DNA of 64,000 nt from assembly GCF_000219625.1 (NCBI RefSeq), contig NC_018212.1, forward strand, positions 1,488,001 to 1,552,000. The letters are read 5' to 3'. The stretch is from Zymoseptoria tritici IPO323. Lineage: Eukaryota; Ascomycota; Dothideomycetes; Mycosphaerellales; Mycosphaerellaceae. A program made the translations under genes and the position numbers. The notes under the pieces were generated by a model. The model saw only the letters and a program-made list of their open reading frames with translations, had not been told where the DNA came from and searched no databases. Positions 32,986 to 41,944 of this stretch are shown here, in pieces (the stretch's first letter is position 1; each line of letters starts with the position of its first letter).

Positions 32986-34128
32986 TCATGCCCACGATCT
33001 CCTTGCACTGTTGATGTATCTCTCAACAGTCATTTCGCGGCCGAAGCAATGGTACTCCCAGTCATCTGGATCTTCCCGCGATCTAAGCTTCGCCACGGCA
33101 ACAGTGTTGGGCTGTGTGACCTGAGCCTTGACGAGCTCCTCCAATCTCTCCAGATTCGACTGCCATGTTTTGGTCTCAGCCGGGGTGAGGGATTCCAGCG
33201 TCATGTCAACGTAGAGTTTGCCAAGTTTTGTGGACACGAAGGCAGTGAGCTCTTCGTCAGTGGCTGTCAAGAGCTTGATGCTGTTCAGGCCGCGAATACC
33301 TCCCAGGTCATGCGCAACATCACACCAGAGTATTTGCGCATCGCTCAAGATAACATCCAAGGCCTCTCCGCGCTGGAAGGCATCCTCGTCCGGATCTTCC
33401 TCGAACACATCGTGACGAGAACGAAAGTAAGATGGATGCACCTTCACCTTCAGCCACTTAAGACTCCTGAAGTGTTCGCTTGACAAGACATTGGCATGAA
33501 CCGACCAAGATGCGCTGATGTGTATCTTGGTAGCCCATCTACACAAGATGCTTCGTGGCTGTTCGGCAATTGTCCTTCCTGAGAAGACCCTCGACGAGCT
33601 GAGATCAATCCATTGGTCTTGCACGTAGGCCTTGGCAGCGGTTTCAGAAAATGCCTTTGAGACCAGGAACTTCTCGACCTGAAGCGGAGGGAATGATCCG
33701 ATCCTCGGGAACGTCTCTAGCTCGCATTGCCCGTACTCATCTCTGATATCGTCTTCGGTCGATTCCGCTTGAGACTCCGCCCACCCGACGATTGAGATTG
33801 TGCGGAGGATTGTGTGTGATGTGACAAATGCCATTTTGAATGTCATGTTCTGGATTTCCAGAGGAAGCCCAAGAAGGAAGCAGTCGGCGCTTTGTGGTGG
33901 CGACTTCTCAGATGAGCACCACAGCACATCCGCGGCAGCAAGTATGATCGTCTTGCTCTTCACATTCCAGAACAGATCGTCAATGAAGTATCCTTTTCCA
34001 ACGCCGAGTGTCTTCTCGGCTTCTTCGCGCACTATGTCGATGTCGAATTTCGCTTCTGGATCCCAGTCATCCCATAATCGTAGTACTGTGCGTCGCAAGC
34101 ATTTCTCGATGTCGAGATTGGTCGGCAT
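32986..34128 (-). CDS. F-box-like family protein, tandem copy 1
   Basis: Single-exon protein of 380 aa, ATG at 34128. It has no clear enzymatic domain. The segment LLGLPLEIQNMTFKMA is a degenerate F-box-like start, and FPPLQVEKFLVSKAFSETAA aligns with the equivalent segment of the two neighbouring genes (FPQPKVCQFFISK and FPPRKVCDFMVSK). The later segments FRSLKWLKVKVHPSYF and WQSNLERLEELVK also find partners there. If a true F-box protein, it would act as an SCF ubiquitin-ligase adaptor; that is inference. Unlike its neighbours it has an extra N-terminal region of about 85 aa and lacks a long disordered tail. Confidence 0.7.
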   Translation of the reverse strand: MPTNLDIEKCLRRTVLRLWDDWDPEAKFDIDIVREEAEKTLGVGKGYFIDDLFWNVKSKTIILAAADVLWCSSEKSPPQSADCFLLGLPLEIQNMTFKMAFVTSHTILRTISIVGWAESQAESTEDDIRDEYGQCELETFPRIGSFPPLQVEKFLVSKAFSETAAKAYVQDQWIDLSSSRVFSGRTIAEQPRSILCRWATKIHISASWSVHANVLSSEHFRSLKWLKVKVHPSYFRSRHDVFEEDPDEDAFQRGEALDVILSDAQILWCDVAHDLGGIRGLNSIKLLTATDEELTAFVSTKLGKLYVDMTLESLTPAETKTWQSNLERLEELVKAQVTQPNTVAVAKLRSREDPDDWEYHCFGREMTVERYINSARRSWA

Positions 34129-34651: not shown

Positions 34652-37117
34652 CTAAACTTCGAGCAAGCTGACATGACGAAACAACCATCGGACCAAGTCG
34701 TCAGCAGTGGCATCGTATCTGCTCAGGCCCAGAGTAGCACCTCCCAGCTCCTTCCGCACGTGCTCTTCGTCTTTTCCCATCAGGACCATGAAAGCCATAT
34801 AGCCAGCGAGATTCGCATGCTTTGCGGTCTCCGGCCATCCCATCACTATCAAAGTTGACTGAATGGCACTCTGAAGCTGATCAGCGGCTGACTCGATCTC
34901 ACCGGCGCGGGCGAGGGTCAGCCAGGACTCTTCTTTCCCAGCTCCAACTTTTCGCACGGTAGCGTCGCCTTGCTTGATCTGTTCTGGAGGCGAGGAGTCT
35001 GCGGTAATGTGGGATCGACTGTCCTGGTCAGTGATGCCTTTCCCCTTCGTGATGCGCCTCTTCTTCGAGGTAACATCATCATCGATGATATCCGATGAGT
35101 CGATACGACGCTTGCGGCCGCCGTTCGGAGTTTTCGGCTCCATCTTCTTGCTGAGAGGGCTGCCCTCGACGAAGTTCCTTTGAGTCTGCGCAATGTCCAG
35201 GAATGGAACATCAGTGTCCAATCCTCGGCTTGCGCTGCCAGCGGTGGATCGATTCCGCTCGCAGATCTTCTTCGCAGCATCTGTGGCTTCTGTCTTCGGC
35301 TTCTTCGTCTTCTCTAGCCAGCCAAGGAAGCCCTTTGGATTTTTCACTGCTAGCCGGATGATCTCTTCCACGGAGCCAGGAACATCGCCAGCATCCATCT
35401 CTTTACAAGGGCCGGTCGATCGTTCGCTTGCGTCTGCCAGGTGTCCGATGTGTTCTGGAACGTGATGCTCCGACAATGGTGGTCTAGGTCTCGTCGAATC
35501 GTACTTGGACGATGTCCGACAAAGCGATGGCGAATCTCCGCAGTAGCCAGGTGATGTTGGACAGAACTTTGGTGAGTTCGAGGCGCATGGAGCTGTGCTC
35601 GGGGATACCAACGGGGTGGTAGGGCTGTACTTTGGCGATGCTGCACCGTCCTCGGATTGCATTCGAGACAAGCACGCTTCGTCGCAACCCATTGGTGTTG
35701 TTGGACTGTACACAGGCGACTCTGCACCTTGCTGCGGGGATTTTGGAGCGGAGGCCTATGCTTGGTAGTCACCTACAGGTGATTTCGGATGATACACAGG
35801 TGATGGAGGACTGTATAAAGGTGATACATAACCGTCCTTGGGGAATGTCGGAGCGTGTGAGGATGATCTCCCGGCAAGCTCGTACGCAGGTGATGTTGGA
35901 TTGTGACCTGGTGATATGGGGGCGGCCGAGTGTGAAGAGGGAGGGGATGCTGGACAGTAGCGAGGTAAAGTCGGACCATGCGGAGACGATGTCCGATTGT
36001 TCGTCGGAGATGCTGGGCAGTACGAAGGCGACGACGCACAGTTGTAACGTGGTGACATTGGATTGTAAGTGGATGACGTCGGGTAGAGTGGAGGCGATGT
36101 TGCGCGATACTGAGGAGATGACGAGCGGTAAGGAGGCGAAGTTGGACAGTACCGGGGAGATGCTAGGCGGCGGCTGCGTGATATCGGGGAGAGCGAAGAT
36201 GATGCGAATTCGTTCGGATGCGGTCGGGATCGTGGCGTAGAGGACGCCGGAGACCAGAAGTCTGATCCCGGAGCGTGCGAAATTGGTCTTGAGACGTGCT
36301 GCGGCGACCTGGTGGCGACTCGGTGTGACTCAGGGGCGCAGGGAAAGATTTCTGGACAGTACGCCGGTGACTGTGGATGATACCGAGGGGATGTCGGATA
36401 GTATGCGGGCGATGTCGGATAACTTGGTGTCATTGATCTGTAATTGGATGATGTCGCATAGTACTGCGGCAGCGATGGTAGCGGCTCATCTTTGGGTCCT
36501 GTGGCGGTCGCAACCAACATTTCTTCCAGGGCCATAACATTGCGCCGCCATTGCCGTTTGTCCGCCTCAGTCTTGGTATATGGCTGAAATCCGGGCGATA
36601 CTCTGAATGTCAGCAGTCCTGCAATGTCCTTGATCCAGGCAAATCCCTTCAGGACCTTGTTCAAGTCCTTCTTTTCATACGCACATGTCCACGAGAAACG
36701 AGGTTCCAATGCCTCGAAGAAATCGTAAGTGACTCCAAGTGTCAGATGTTTCAGCCGGGGAAGAGATCGGATAATCATGTAGCGTCGGGCAGTCATTGTC
36801 ATGGTCTGACAAAAGCGTGACACCAGCGATTTCGAATCTTGCAAATTGAATGTCTTTTCTTGAGAGCGACCTGTGATGTCGAATTTCTGGTTGCCCACCC
36901 ATGCCCGCGATGCCTCGAGGAGAAAGCGCTTCGAGATGAAGAATTGGCACACTTTGGGTTGGGGAAAAGGGCGCAGCTCGTACGACGAGTCGTTCCGCTT
37001 TTTTTCCATCTCTGCGCTGTCCCATTGCTCCCAGTTGACGTAGTTCATCTCCTCTTCCGGATACGCAAGATCAAAGATCTCGTCCACCAGCTCTTGCGGT
37101 AAGTCAAAGAGTCCCAT
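34652..37117 (-). CDS. F-box-like protein with RNA polymerase II CTD-like repeats, tandem copy 2 (in-frame TAG)
   Basis: N-terminal region (about residues 1-220) begins MGLFDLPQELVDEIFDLAYP and shares ELRPFP.PKVC and AWVGNQ with the next gene. Residues about 225-530 are a degenerate Tyr-Ser-Pro-Thr-Ser-Pro array (YPTSPAYYPTSPRYHPQSP, YCPTSPPY, YSPPSP), like the RNAPII CTD. The array is broken by a TAG at 35758-35756; the same frame continues beyond it with VYSPTTP, KYSPTTP and FCPTSPGY. The C-terminal domain ends ATADDLVRWLF, matching AAIDEFVRWLF of the neighbour, so both halves are one gene. A 45-bp intron 35776-35732 (GTAGGT...CGCAG, phase 0) would remove the stop and give 806 aa, but it lacks a good branch site. 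Alternatives are a nonsense mutation or readthrough. Confidence 0.65.
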
Positions 37118-38173: not shown

Positions 38174-41059
38174 CTAAGCAGAATGGGACTTGACGAAGTC
38201 GAACAGCCAACGAACAAATTCATCGATGGCAGCCCCGGTAGGAGCATATGGGCCCGTCCCCAGCCAATTCAGCAGCACCTCACGGACGGCTGCCTTGTCT
38301 TTGCCGTTCACCATCATAGCTTCTAGGTCAAGTGCAAGCCTGTTGTGACATTCTGGATAGACCCATCTGCGCTCCACCAGCTTTGGCTGAATCAGATACC
38401 ACAAGAGTTCTCCATCGATGCAAATTTCGTCAGCCTCTGAGTATCGGATACCCTCGGCCTCGTCCCTTCTGAGAGCTTGACCACCGCTGTGAGACGAGGC
38501 CTTTTCATCAATGTTACTAGGCTCTGCAGGAGCCTGTGCGGGACTCGTGGCACTCGTGAGAGCTTCTTCAACATGCCCGGATGGTCCACTTGAGCCTTGA
38601 AAGACCTCAACGGCTTCACTCGTCGTTTGATAAAACTGAATCGCCATGTTTTGGAGGTTGGTCTGCCTCCGGAGAGCTTCCGCACGAGCCTTCGCATAGA
38701 TGCGCCCGTTGACGAACTTGATGCTATCTCGACGGACCGGTGATGATGACATCGTGAAAGCCAGAGGTCTAAGTATGTCAACGACATCGCTGTGCTCGAC
38801 GAGACCAAAAGCGCTTGCATTCGATGGAGAGGCCAGAACAGACATGGCATGTGGAAGAGTCGCGAGAAAATCGGAGACTTTGTCCACTTTCTTCTGCGGT
38901 AATATGGAAAAGCGTGGGCTGCTTGTGCGCTGCTCTTCAATCAAAGACATGGCGGCTGTTGGCTTTGACGGCGACTTGACGCTGGCTTCCTGCTTTGATG
39001 CCAACGCTGCTGCATCGGAAGTGGATGTAGTCGTCGCGTGCGTGTCTGGCCCCTTCGAGATATCGGCCAGATGCTGGTGGCTGGACGGGGCGGGGCTGGT
39101 GGGATGATCGCAGACTTCGCCCGAGAGTTCCGACACAGCGAGGCTATTGCTCTGCTCAGGTTCCATGGAGCTTGCGAGACTGGCAACGCTGGGCTCATTA
39201 GTGCTGGTTTGACGAGAGAGCAGAGATTGCTTGGCCATCTCGCAGTCTCTGCAGGGGCTCCAGGGAAAGATGCAGTCACCATTGCCGGCGTCACTGAACA
39301 TAGTGGTGACTGGTCCGTCTTTGCGGATGACTGACTTCGACTGGAGAATGGTTGGCAGGCCAGACGGACCATCCATGCAGGTTTCTTGGAGAAAGAAGTT
39401 ATCGAGACGCCGATTACCGTGCTCGCGGGTTTCGGCCAGACCAGACGAGACTTGCTGGGCAGCTTCGCTATTTGCAAAGTTCTCGGCAGGAAGCTCGGTG
39501 AGTTCGGCGTCCATAATTTGCTTGGAGAAATCGGCGCTGTCGGTTATTACGCCCAGCTCGTTCATGGACATGGATGGGAGTTCGTTCTGGAAGAAAGACG
39601 CGGCGCCGACGCTTGTGTTGATTCGACAGATGGACTCCTCGTCGCCGCCGCGAAAGACCGCTTCTGGGTGTTGCTTGACTTCCATGCACAAGCTTTGTCC
39701 CGGAGGTGATGACAGCCGGGGCATCTCATCGGTGAGTGAGGTCAAAGCAGGCCCACATCCGTAGAATGATGCGGCTTTGAGATCTGCGTTGAGCATTGTG
39801 ATAAGATCTGCACGGCTGACGCCGTCCTGCTTGTCTTGCTTCGAGGGATCATGCTCATTCGAGGCGCTTTCAGCACGCGGAAAGGTGAACCCCAGCTTGG
39901 CGATCGCCATGGAGGTATGTACCGCTCCACTGTCCTCGGAAGAAGATTCGTCTTCCTGCCCGCCGTGCCCAAGTCTTTCGCTCTCGAGGAAAGCTTTCCA
40001 CAGGCGCTGGAACCCGAAAGCCTGCTGCACGGGGTAGCCTGCAGGATGCGTCTTGAGCTCGGGATCGAATTTGTGCAAGGCTAATGGAGTCAAGACAAAT
40101 GGTTTGAGCGCCTTTTCTAACGCCGAGACGTTCGTCTTCCATAGCGACTTCTGTTGCTTGCTGGTGGCGTATTTGATATCCGCAGGTGTCAACGCAAGGT
40201 GTGTCAATCCAGAAAGCCGGGTAATGTATTTGCAATCGACGAGAACCTTGACAAGGTCTTCCTCCGTGAGCGCAAACTGCCACGCGAATCGTGGTTCCAG
40301 CACTTGGAAGGAATCGGCTCCGACCCGGAGTGTAAGACGACTCAGATTCGGAAGCCTGTCCAAGGTGAGTACCGATCGGAACTGTGTAGTGAGTCTTTTG
40401 CACAGGCGCTCCACGATTGCGAAATGTGTGCGCCGGGTTCTCCAAGTGCCGAGCCCATCAAAGATAGAGTTGCTGCTGCTTGCCGGACGTGCCGAGCGGT
40501 GGATGAACTCTTGATTGCCAACCCATGCTGCTGTGGCGCATGCAAAGAACTTCTTCGAAACCATGAAGTCGCACACTTTTCGTGGTGGGAAAGGTCGCAG
40601 TTCGTATGCGAAGTTGATCCGCTTGCGCTCCATCTCCTCCTCATCCCAGTCTTCCTTGACCACGAATTTGGCGAGGTCTTCCTCCGGGTACGCATACCCA
40701 AGAATGTGATCCACAATTTCTTGCGGGAAATCGAAGAAGTGCAAAGGCTGCCTGGTCGTGACGAGCCGAACCTTTTCTTCTGTCTTCGTGTTGGCCGTGA
40801 TTGCTTCCTGTGATGTTGTGGACACTGCATCGTCGGCTGGAGCTTCTGTTGTCGACGAAGGCGACTTTGTTGTCGATAAAACTGCTCGAGGTGGGAAGTC
40901 CGCTTCGATAGCCGAGGAAGCATCGTGGAACAAAGTTGGGGACGATGAAGGTGAAGATGAAGTCGTGAGCGCATCATGGAACGACGTTGGAGACGAAGGT
41001 GACGATGCAGGAGATGGCGAAGAGGCTCGGGAGGAAGGTGCAGTCCATGATGAGAACAT
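38174..41059 (-). CDS. F-box-like family protein with long disordered region, tandem copy 3
   Basis: Single-exon protein of 961 aa from the ATG at 41059 (MFSSWTAPSSRAS); another in-frame ATG at 41365 would add 102 residues of unusual composition and is less likely. Residues 1-105 are Ser/Pro-rich. The F-box-like segment (about 110-145) is FFDFPQEIVDHILGYAYPEE, followed by AYELRPFPPRKVCDFMVSKK and a region containing RLPNLSRLTLRVGADSF that may be an LRR-like beta structure. A long polar stretch follows (about 300-860). The last 80 residues, ending AAIDEFVRWLFDFVK, are shared with copy 2. It is possibly an SCF-type substrate adaptor; this is not proven. Duplication with neighbours is clear at segment level. 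Confidence 0.75.
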   Translation of the reverse strand: MFSSWTAPSSRASSPSPASSPSSPTSFHDALTTSSSPSSSPTLFHDASSAIEADFPPRAVLSTTKSPSSTTEAPADDAVSTTSQEAITANTKTEEKVRLVTTRQPLHFFDFPQEIVDHILGYAYPEEDLAKFVVKEDWDEEEMERKRINFAYELRPFPPRKVCDFMVSKKFFACATAAWVGNQEFIHRSARPASSSNSIFDGLGTWRTRRTHFAIVERLCKRLTTQFRSVLTLDRLPNLSRLTLRVGADSFQVLEPRFAWQFALTEEDLVKVLVDCKYITRLSGLTHLALTPADIKYATSKQQKSLWKTNVSALEKALKPFVLTPLALHKFDPELKTHPAGYPVQQAFGFQRLWKAFLESERLGHGGQEDESSSEDSGAVHTSMAIAKLGFTFPRAESASNEHDPSKQDKQDGVSRADLITMLNADLKAASFYGCGPALTSLTDEMPRLSSPPGQSLCMEVKQHPEAVFRGGDEESICRINTSVGAASFFQNELPSMSMNELGVITDSADFSKQIMDAELTELPAENFANSEAAQQVSSGLAETREHGNRRLDNFFLQETCMDGPSGLPTILQSKSVIRKDGPVTTMFSDAGNGDCIFPWSPCRDCEMAKQSLLSRQTSTNEPSVASLASSMEPEQSNSLAVSELSGEVCDHPTSPAPSSHQHLADISKGPDTHATTTSTSDAAALASKQEASVKSPSKPTAAMSLIEEQRTSSPRFSILPQKKVDKVSDFLATLPHAMSVLASPSNASAFGLVEHSDVVDILRPLAFTMSSSPVRRDSIKFVNGRIYAKARAEALRRQTNLQNMAIQFYQTTSEAVEVFQGSSGPSGHVEEALTSATSPAQAPAEPSNIDEKASSHSGGQALRRDEAEGIRYSEADEICIDGELLWYLIQPKLVERRWVYPECHNRLALDLEAMMVNGKDKAAVREVLLNWLGTGPYAPTGAAIDEFVRWLFDFVKSHSA

Positions 41060-41944
41060 GGCTGATGTAGCACTTGTCGATGCTTCTATGAGAAGTGTGG
41101 GCGCACGTCGCGAATGCCGGCCTCGATGCGCAGCCGAGTCGAGAGGCGCAAAAGCGCAGGACGGTCGAGTCTCAGTCGAGTCCTTCAAAGATGCCCGAAT
41201 ACGTTGCTGGCATTCGAAGCGCAATATCGCAGTGCAATCCCGATGCACGTCGATGATGTATTGAAGAAGGAGTCCAGCTCCCCCGGAAGTCCAGTGGTGA
41301 AGGAAGCCAAAGAGTCCCGGCCCGCTAGCGTGCATTTCGCGTAAGACACGCCCGTCACTTTGCATGAGGCTCGAATCCTAAGACAGCCTAGCGCATTGGT
41401 CAAGTGAATGTTTCACACTCACACTCAGACTTCAGGCCTGCTCCACCTCTTCAGAGTGATCAACGCAGAAGTGAGATGGAAATGGTAGTAAAAGTGACAG
41501 AAGTAGAAACGCCCAAGAACAAGTAAGAAAACGTGAAAAGGGGCCTGTGTTCAAACATTAGACAGTATCGACACGCACCATCTATCTCTTGTTCTCGCTT
41601 CTGTCAGTCGCCGTCTCGATCAGCTCATATTCCTTCGTACAAGTCCTTGTCGTCGCATGCCCTTCATTTTTCTTTCTGAACACAATCTCCAGCCCATCAT
41701 AGTAATATGAGAGACTCCAGCGCCATTGATTCCTGAAAACCCCCGCCCTTTTGTGGTCCCTCGCAATGCAATATGAACAACGACAACCAACCATCCAATG
41801 TCCTGTTTTGAGCTCCAACCCGCCTGCATGCAACATCTCGCCCGATTGATGTAAAAAGAACACACTCTCTCATTGTCCCGACTTCGACTTTGACGAACCA
41901 GGTCCGACCATCGAGTCACTCCTCACGTTTGAAGGGTGCGACTC
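41060..41944. other. intergenic, upstream of copy 3
   Basis: Contains a possible in-frame N-terminal extension of copy 3 (41060-41365) and the 3' flank of the next gene. Short open frames near 41582-41919 look like untranslated sequence. Confidence 0.4.

Follow-up and report, generated by a model that had tools for sequence, protein, structure and literature searches.

A fast-evolving Zymoseptoria tritici gene with a CTD-like heptad array and a Nab2-N-type domain, interrupted by an in-frame TAG

Organization of the locus

A minus-strand gene of Zymoseptoria tritici IPO323 was analyzed in a window of 64,000 nucleotides (contig C7, bases 1488001 to 1552000), with searches extended to the whole genome of 39,686,251 bases on 21 contigs. 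Its reading frame runs from an ATG at window position 37117 to a TAG at 34654-34652, with one further TAG at 35758-35756 as the sole interruption, and covers a conserved N-terminal domain (N-domain), a degenerate array of heptads resembling the C-terminal domain (CTD) of RPB1, the largest subunit of RNA polymerase II (Pol II), and a domain of the Nab2-N type at the C terminus (Table 1). The layout of this array gene, the Nab2-N identity of its last domain, and the absence of the TAG from two deposited relatives emerge from the computation itself. Going by deposited sequences, the combination of N-domain, array, and Nab2-N domain appears so far to occur in Zymoseptoria and one metagenome relative. 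We tentatively read the locus as a fast-evolving gene, probably encoding a nuclear messenger ribonucleoprotein (mRNP) adaptor with a CTD-like tail and truncated in the window genome, and give this reading a probability of roughly 40%.

Table 1. Features of the array gene and its neighbors (positions in the window; aa, amino acids)
Feature	Position	Strand	Remarks
Upstream open part	37117-35759	minus	453 aa
Downstream open part	35755-34655	minus	367 aa, ends at TAG 34654-34652
N-terminal conserved domain	36485..37117	minus	residues 1-211, LPQE...IF start
CTD-like heptad array, piece 1	35759..36466	minus	residues 218-453
In-frame TAG	35756..35758	minus	sense codon in deposited ST99CH_3D1 and Z. 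brevis proteins
CTD-like array, piece 2	35501..35755	minus	more degenerate
Conserved short motif VPGSVEEIIRLAVKNPKGFLGWLEKTKK	35300..35383	minus	kept in P0005 and P0004, more weakly in P0006
Two basic clusters, RKRR ... KKRRITKGK	35039..35116	minus	by inspection, nuclear-signal-like
Predicted Nab2-N (PWI-like) domain	34655..34888	minus	reciprocal matches with own-genome Nab2, AlphaFold model, hhalign
Introns of deposited ST99CH_3D1 model	36870-36733, 36383-36262, 35827-35773	minus	GT-AG
Tandem paralogue	38174..41377	minus	1067 aa stop to stop; N-domain, and Nab2-N domain at 38183-38395
Weak third relative	32989..34128	minus	380 aa, N-domain-like only

The heptad array and its likeness to the RPB1 CTD

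Heptads were counted as strict units (YxPxSP), medium units ([YFH]x[PSA]x[ST]P), and [ST]P pairs spaced by 7 residues, and compared with 20,000 composition-preserving shuffles. Piece 1 contained 8 strict units (shuffle mean, 0.19), 12 medium units (shuffle mean, 0.99), and 9 spacing-7 pairs (shuffle mean, 0.74), and none of the 20,000 shuffles reached any of these counts. Piece 2, which follows the TAG, contained no strict unit and three medium units, a number equalled in 2 of the 20,000 shuffles, together with six spacing-7 pairs (shuffle mean, 0.16) that no shuffle reached, indicating that the 7-residue period resumes past the TAG in a more degenerate form. The original prediction of a single TAG breaking a frame that then resumes with heptads of the same kind thus proved correct, both in the open reading frame (ORF) itself, with Tyr-x-Pro heptads on the two sides, and in the shuffle comparison.

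Anchoring on [ST]P gave 23 units in piece 1, with Tyr1 in 11, Pro3 in 11, and Ser/Thr2-Pro3 in 1, and 11 units in piece 2, with Tyr1 in 3 and Ser/Thr2-Pro3 in 2, so that both pieces together hold 14 Tyr-led [ST]P units. For comparison, the CTD encoded in the same genome (C4:1081806-1082531, a gene named RPB1 here from its canonical CTD alone) has 49 [ST]P units, with Tyr1 in 18, Pro3 in 22, and Ser/Thr2-Pro3 in 21. These counts suggest that the array retains the Ser5-Pro6 side of the heptad, while the Ser2-Pro3 side is mostly lost. The array thus shares with the RPB1 CTD (PF05001) the heptad period and, in many units, Tyr1, Pro3, and Ser5-Pro6, but it differs in being degenerate, in mostly lacking Ser2-Pro3, in carrying Cys at position 2 of several units, and in not residing on the largest Pol II subunit.

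Piece 1, used as a protein query against the PDB, returned RPB1 CTDs (best E value, 4.7e-15), and the RPB1 CTD of the genome itself, searched against the whole genome at E values up to 10, gave 15 matches, of which 1 was itself and 4 lay in the array gene; the best non-self match was the array gene (E = 2.2e-9), with a further match in piece 2 (E = 0.0019), while a shuffled CTD gave one match (E = 0.039). A loose DNA pattern of the SPxYxPxSP type matched 80 places genome-wide and its reversed control 74, so that single pattern matches carry no meaning, but the matches cluster, with 14 in RPB1, 8 in the array gene, 4 at C7:2.044 Mb, and 3 at C8:0.270 Mb. The comparison with profiles of the Pol II CTD, which had been proposed as a check, was only partly favorable. 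In the genome search, Pfam Rpb1_R (PF05001) scored 16.4 bits per single unit (E = 1.07) and 22.4 bits with neighboring units summed, above the family cutoff of 20.3, whereas neither piece gave any family up to an E value of 1, the RPB1 repeat included, when scanned directly with Pfam. The same direct scan does detect Rpb1_R in a gene on contig C8 (E = 2.9e-4).

CTD-like stretches outside RPB1 have a precedent in yeast, where Trf4 and Sen1 contain CTD mimics that are bound by the CTD-interacting domain of Nrd1, and Mpp6 has a further mimic (PMC7110113). Like these NIM mimics, the array resembles the CTD, belongs to a protein other than RPB1, and presumably lies in a disordered region; unlike the mimics, which are single short motifs of acidic residues plus Tyr (PMC7110113), it comprises many Tyr-led units and few acidic residues. 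Among the open-licence literature matches listed, no title or abstract opening concerned the array gene, CTD heptads combined with Nab2-N, or CTD arrays in Zymoseptoria.

Several other loci of the genome carry related units. On contig C8, a 910-aa frame (269750-272479) opens with MARTKQSRRKN and continues with RPB1-like heptads (Pfam Rpb1_R at the E value given above, in five stretches) and a UBA-like domain (E = 1.1e-6). Its start resembles the histone H3 tail, and the adjoining of such a start to a CTD-like array is striking. At and around C7:2044494-2044655, a 473-aa ORF combines a YxPxSP array (the four pattern matches at this place) with a basic stretch, KRRK, and has no Pfam family up to an E value of 1. 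At C7:2554137-2554421, SPVYSPTTP-like units lie near the end of a 419-aa ORF that also encodes an RRM domain (E = 2.4e-13). In addition, five 24-base stretches that match the heptad pattern and are nearly identical to one another, at C2:1982884, C5:2389922, C6:1023966, C11:1300084, and C20:425367, probably represent a repeated element.

The in-frame TAG and the deposited gene models

The TAG could be compared in two of the four deposited relatives, namely P0003 from Z. tritici ST99CH_3D1 and P0005 from Zymoseptoria brevis, and both have a sense codon at its position; P0007 (248 aa) starts downstream of the array and so says nothing on the TAG, and P0004, a 613-aa metagenome protein, is unalignable there. 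Copies without the stop therefore exist, and the copy in the window is a truncated allele. Judged by these protein sequences, the TAG seems to be a derived state in the genome analyzed, in line with the suggestion that it is a recent nonsense allele, and the truncated product would lack the basic region and the Nab2-N domain.

The alternative proposal that a 45-bp intron removes the TAG found no support. With the acceptor at 35756 and spans of 36 to 129 nucleotides (nt) considered, the GT donors give introns of 40, 42, 56, 72, and 77 nt, none of them 45 nt, and among these the 42- and 72-nt spans alone stay in frame. Moreover, since two relatives have a sense codon at the position, no intron is needed there.

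A more sweeping possibility is that the gene is decaying across the whole species complex, with the TAG and the fast change as signs of lost function. The presence of the TAG in the genome in hand, the identity of only 81% between the C-terminal domains of the window and Z. brevis, and the array's lack of strong constraint (see below) are compatible with such decay. However, 367 codons stay open past the TAG, 364 of the 367 residues are identical to those of the ST99CH_3D1 protein, and Z. brevis and P0004 both retain the Nab2-N domain, 30 of the 89 columns of a three-sequence alignment being invariant. Decay throughout the complex is accordingly very unlikely.

The deposited models also raise the question of whether the heptads are translated at all. 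Removing three GT-AG introns from the window sequence reproduces P0003 except at 4 of 716 residues, one of them the stop; introns 2 and 3 shift most of the array out of the heptad frame (frame 0), and the Z. brevis model shares that other frame. If the true transcript were spliced in this way, the heptads would never be made. Judged by the usual splice and branch consensus of fungi, intron 1 carries a CTGAC close to its end, as such splicing would have it, but no CTRAY branch-like motif occurs in introns 2 and 3. In addition, the three introns contain no frame-0 stop and are thus unneeded, the residues that intron 1 would remove are matched in the paralogue and in P0004, and P0004 retains a Ser-Pro (SP)-rich middle between its N-domain and its Nab2-N domain; it presumably is one uninterrupted frame, given its source in a metagenome gene call. 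Considering the missing stops, the loss of shared residues, and the absence of CTRAY, the three-intron reading is probably a gene-prediction artefact, and a transcript spliced as deposited seems highly improbable. A consequence is that heptad searches of databases can miss these genes, because the deposited models place the greater part of the array in another frame.

Domains flanking the array

The Nab2 N-terminal domain of the genome itself, searched against the genome, matched itself, the array gene (E = 1.5e-12), the neighboring gene (E = 1.2e-8), and nothing else, and the match was reciprocal, the C-terminal domain of the array gene (C-domain) also finding the own-genome Nab2. The claim that this domain is common to the array gene and its neighbor was thereby confirmed. 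The top four Foldseek matches of the AlphaFold model of the C-domain were yeast Nab2-N structures (3lcn, 2v75, and 2jps), and the fold matches included RBM25 and Prp3 structures, which are PWI domains (Prp3 is so titled in its match). An hhalign comparison of the C-domain with Nab2-N gave 97.2%. A PDB profile search with the C-domain alignment found no Nab2, its one match being a designed protein (E = 0.45), and the own-genome Nab2 domain matches 2v75 weakly (E = 0.48); the sequence link to Nab2 thus passes through the own-genome Nab2. Pfam PF11517 (Nab2) detected one of the five members of set A5 (E = 0.042), not the one of the window, and this profile misses the own Nab2 too. From the sequence matches and the predicted fold taken together, the C terminus is classed as a Nab2-N-type (PWI-like) domain.

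Compared with Nab2/ZC3H14 (2v75, 2jps, and 3lcn), the C-domain is alike in its predicted fold, in its sequence kinship to the own Nab2 N-domain, and in keeping Tyr34, but it lies at the C terminus rather than the N terminus, and Phe73, the subject of a simulation study (PMC13240961), is kept neither in it nor in the own Nab2. The Pfam scan found no zf-CCCH in either piece, while L023 does score. Lacking CCCH zinc fingers, the array gene does not encode a Nab2 protein, only a carrier of the Nab2-N domain. Between this domain and the array, the first basic cluster (RKRR) is kept in P0005, and both clusters are roughly kept in P0004.

The N-domain shares 87 of 219 aligned columns (40%) with that of the neighboring gene, and its further relatives are P0004 (49%) and P0006 from Salinomyces thailandicus (32%), the latter carrying neither array nor Nab2-N domain. 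Searched in the own genome, the N-domain was found in two places, itself and the neighbor; the third relative reached an E value of 3e-4 in a two-sequence comparison and was not among the genome-search matches. The N terminus had been labeled F-box-like, and recruitment of a ubiquitin ligase had been proposed on this basis, but neither idea is supported. The likeness to F-box proteins consists of the LPQE..xxIF motif opening the N-domain and of that motif only, whereas Pfam gave no family for the N-domain and no F-box match up to an E value of 10, and hhalign against four F-boxes returned a probability of 2.6%. An NCBIfam search gave no support either, and the single match in a PDB profile search (E = 0.7) was to a protein other than an F-box protein. 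The AlphaFold model of the N-domain (mean pLDDT, 56.6) has no clear fold match and is too poor to test an F-box fold, so that the lack of any named F-box protein among the best 50 of 190 Foldseek matches is uninformative.

The tandem paralogue, residues 210-440 of which are 100% identical (rounded) to P0001 of Z. tritici ST99CH_1A5, also ends in a Nab2-N-type domain. In residues 331-860 of P0001, eight [ST]P were found and no Tyr-led heptad, and the middle of P0004 likewise contains eight [ST]P, one of them with Tyr1. As the paralogue has both domains and the middle of its P0001 copy no Tyr-led heptads, the layout of N-domain plus Nab2-N domain is not tied to the array.

Selection and codon usage in the array

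Selection was assessed at the protein level between the window and Z. brevis, a comparison in which changes at second codon positions of the heptad frame are invisible. Over 154 aligned codons, 17 residues differ in the other frame; 9 of these changes leave the heptad-frame residues as they are (for one change, this applies to only one of three paths tied for shortest), and the other 8 alter them, 3 at motif residues. Moreover, identity at lag 7, that is, over the 21-nt period, was 0.44, 0.54, and 0.40 at codon positions 1, 2, and 3, compared with 0.19-0.32, 0.28-0.43, and 0.18-0.29, respectively, at lags 3-6 and 8-13, so the period has decayed about equally at the three positions. The 9 versus 8 changes and this equal decay speak against strong selection on the heptads. 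Same-residue pairs shared their codon in 23 of 61 cases at lag 7 and in 634 of 2496 elsewhere, which is a trace of past duplication.

The training set for codon usage comprised 10 ORFs, each 400 aa or longer and none overlapping another (9112 codons, with the first 60 of every ORF omitted). These ORFs are not curated models; they exclude piece 1 of the array gene and include the paralogue and the third relative. Frame 0 was favored in the N-domain (31.7 bits versus -21.0 and -20.9) and in the C-terminal part (56.1 bits versus 3.9 and -29.7). In piece 1, frames 0, 1, and 2 scored -38.5, -37.4, and -33.2 bits, with 0, 3, and 2 stops, and the antisense frames -114.1, 12.9, and 5.4 bits, with 22, 15, and 1 stops.

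These data have to be set against the adaptor reading. The substitutions, the decay of the period, and the shared codons fit an array that grew by duplication under little constraint, and they weigh most heavily against a functional CTD mimic; codon usage in piece 1 does not favor frame 0, two antisense frames scoring higher. Further points count on the same side: Ser/Thr2-Pro3 is found in 1 of the 11 Tyr1 units of piece 1; acidic residues make up 13 of 321 in the array, while known CTD mimics are acidic, although phosphate could stand in for the missing acidic residues; the direct Pfam scan recovers no RPB1 repeat; the two deposited gene models (P0003 and P0005) place most of the array in a different frame; no Foldseek match of the C-domain reaches an E value of 0.001; the Nab2-N side of the hhalign comparison includes the own Nab2 and is thus not independent of the genome match; and Phe73 is not kept.

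An ordinary, fast-evolving Ser/Pro/Tyr-rich disordered linker joining two folded domains, grown by 21-bp duplication and with no binding partner behind its CTD likeness, is almost as likely as the adaptor. The equal decay over codon positions, the shared codons at lag 7, the balance of changes in Z. brevis, the loss of Ser2-Pro3, the empty direct Pfam scan, and the middles of P0001 and P0004, with their [ST]P and next to no Tyr1, all agree with a linker. On the other hand, the array is the strongest other match of the genome's own CTD, it ranks second in CTD-type pattern matches (8 of 80), Tyr1, Pro3, and Ser5-Pro6 recur together in it beyond shuffles, and it belongs to a protein with a Nab2-N domain.

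A possible mRNP adaptor

If the adaptor reading is followed, the protein would consist of three parts, namely the conserved N-domain, a presumably disordered tail of degenerate Tyr1/Ser5-Pro6 units, and the C-terminal Nab2-N-type domain. The last of these may dock on a Nab2-type partner, such as a Gfd1-like export factor; the Tyr that contacts Gfd1 in yeast is kept, and the Phe critical for Mlp1 is not. The tail may be phosphorylated on Ser-Pro by CTD kinases and then held by readers of the Ser5-phosphorylated CTD, in which case the protein would connect mRNA export with the transcribing polymerase or its 3'-end factors, or would compete with Nab2 at that point. We infer nuclear location, disorder, phosphorylation, and binding, with the mimics bound by Nrd1 as the precedent (PMC7110113). 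The CTD-linked role in RNA processing suggested originally is thus upheld in part: the CTD-like array is real and is accompanied by a Nab2-N domain and adjacent basic stretches, but the comparison with Z. brevis speaks against strong selection.

More speculatively, the array gene, C8:269882-270277, and C7:2044494-2044655 might form a small set of nuclear proteins with CTD-like tails outside RPB1, which CTD readers would meet as decoys or as secondary platforms. In the array gene, this kind of platform would be joined to an export domain of the Nab2-N type, and isolates would differ in having the protein at full length; we consider this improbable.

Even if the tail is idle, the locus illustrates that deposited models can hide such arrays by reading them in another frame, and two genes, the array gene and its neighbor, carry a Nab2-N domain outside the Nab2 protein. 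If the tail does bind CTD readers, it would be a long CTD-like platform on a protein other than RPB1, connected to a domain of mRNA export and unlike the single short motifs described for mimics in PMC7110113. It would then be possible to examine whether the CTD code can be separated from the polymerase in a cell.
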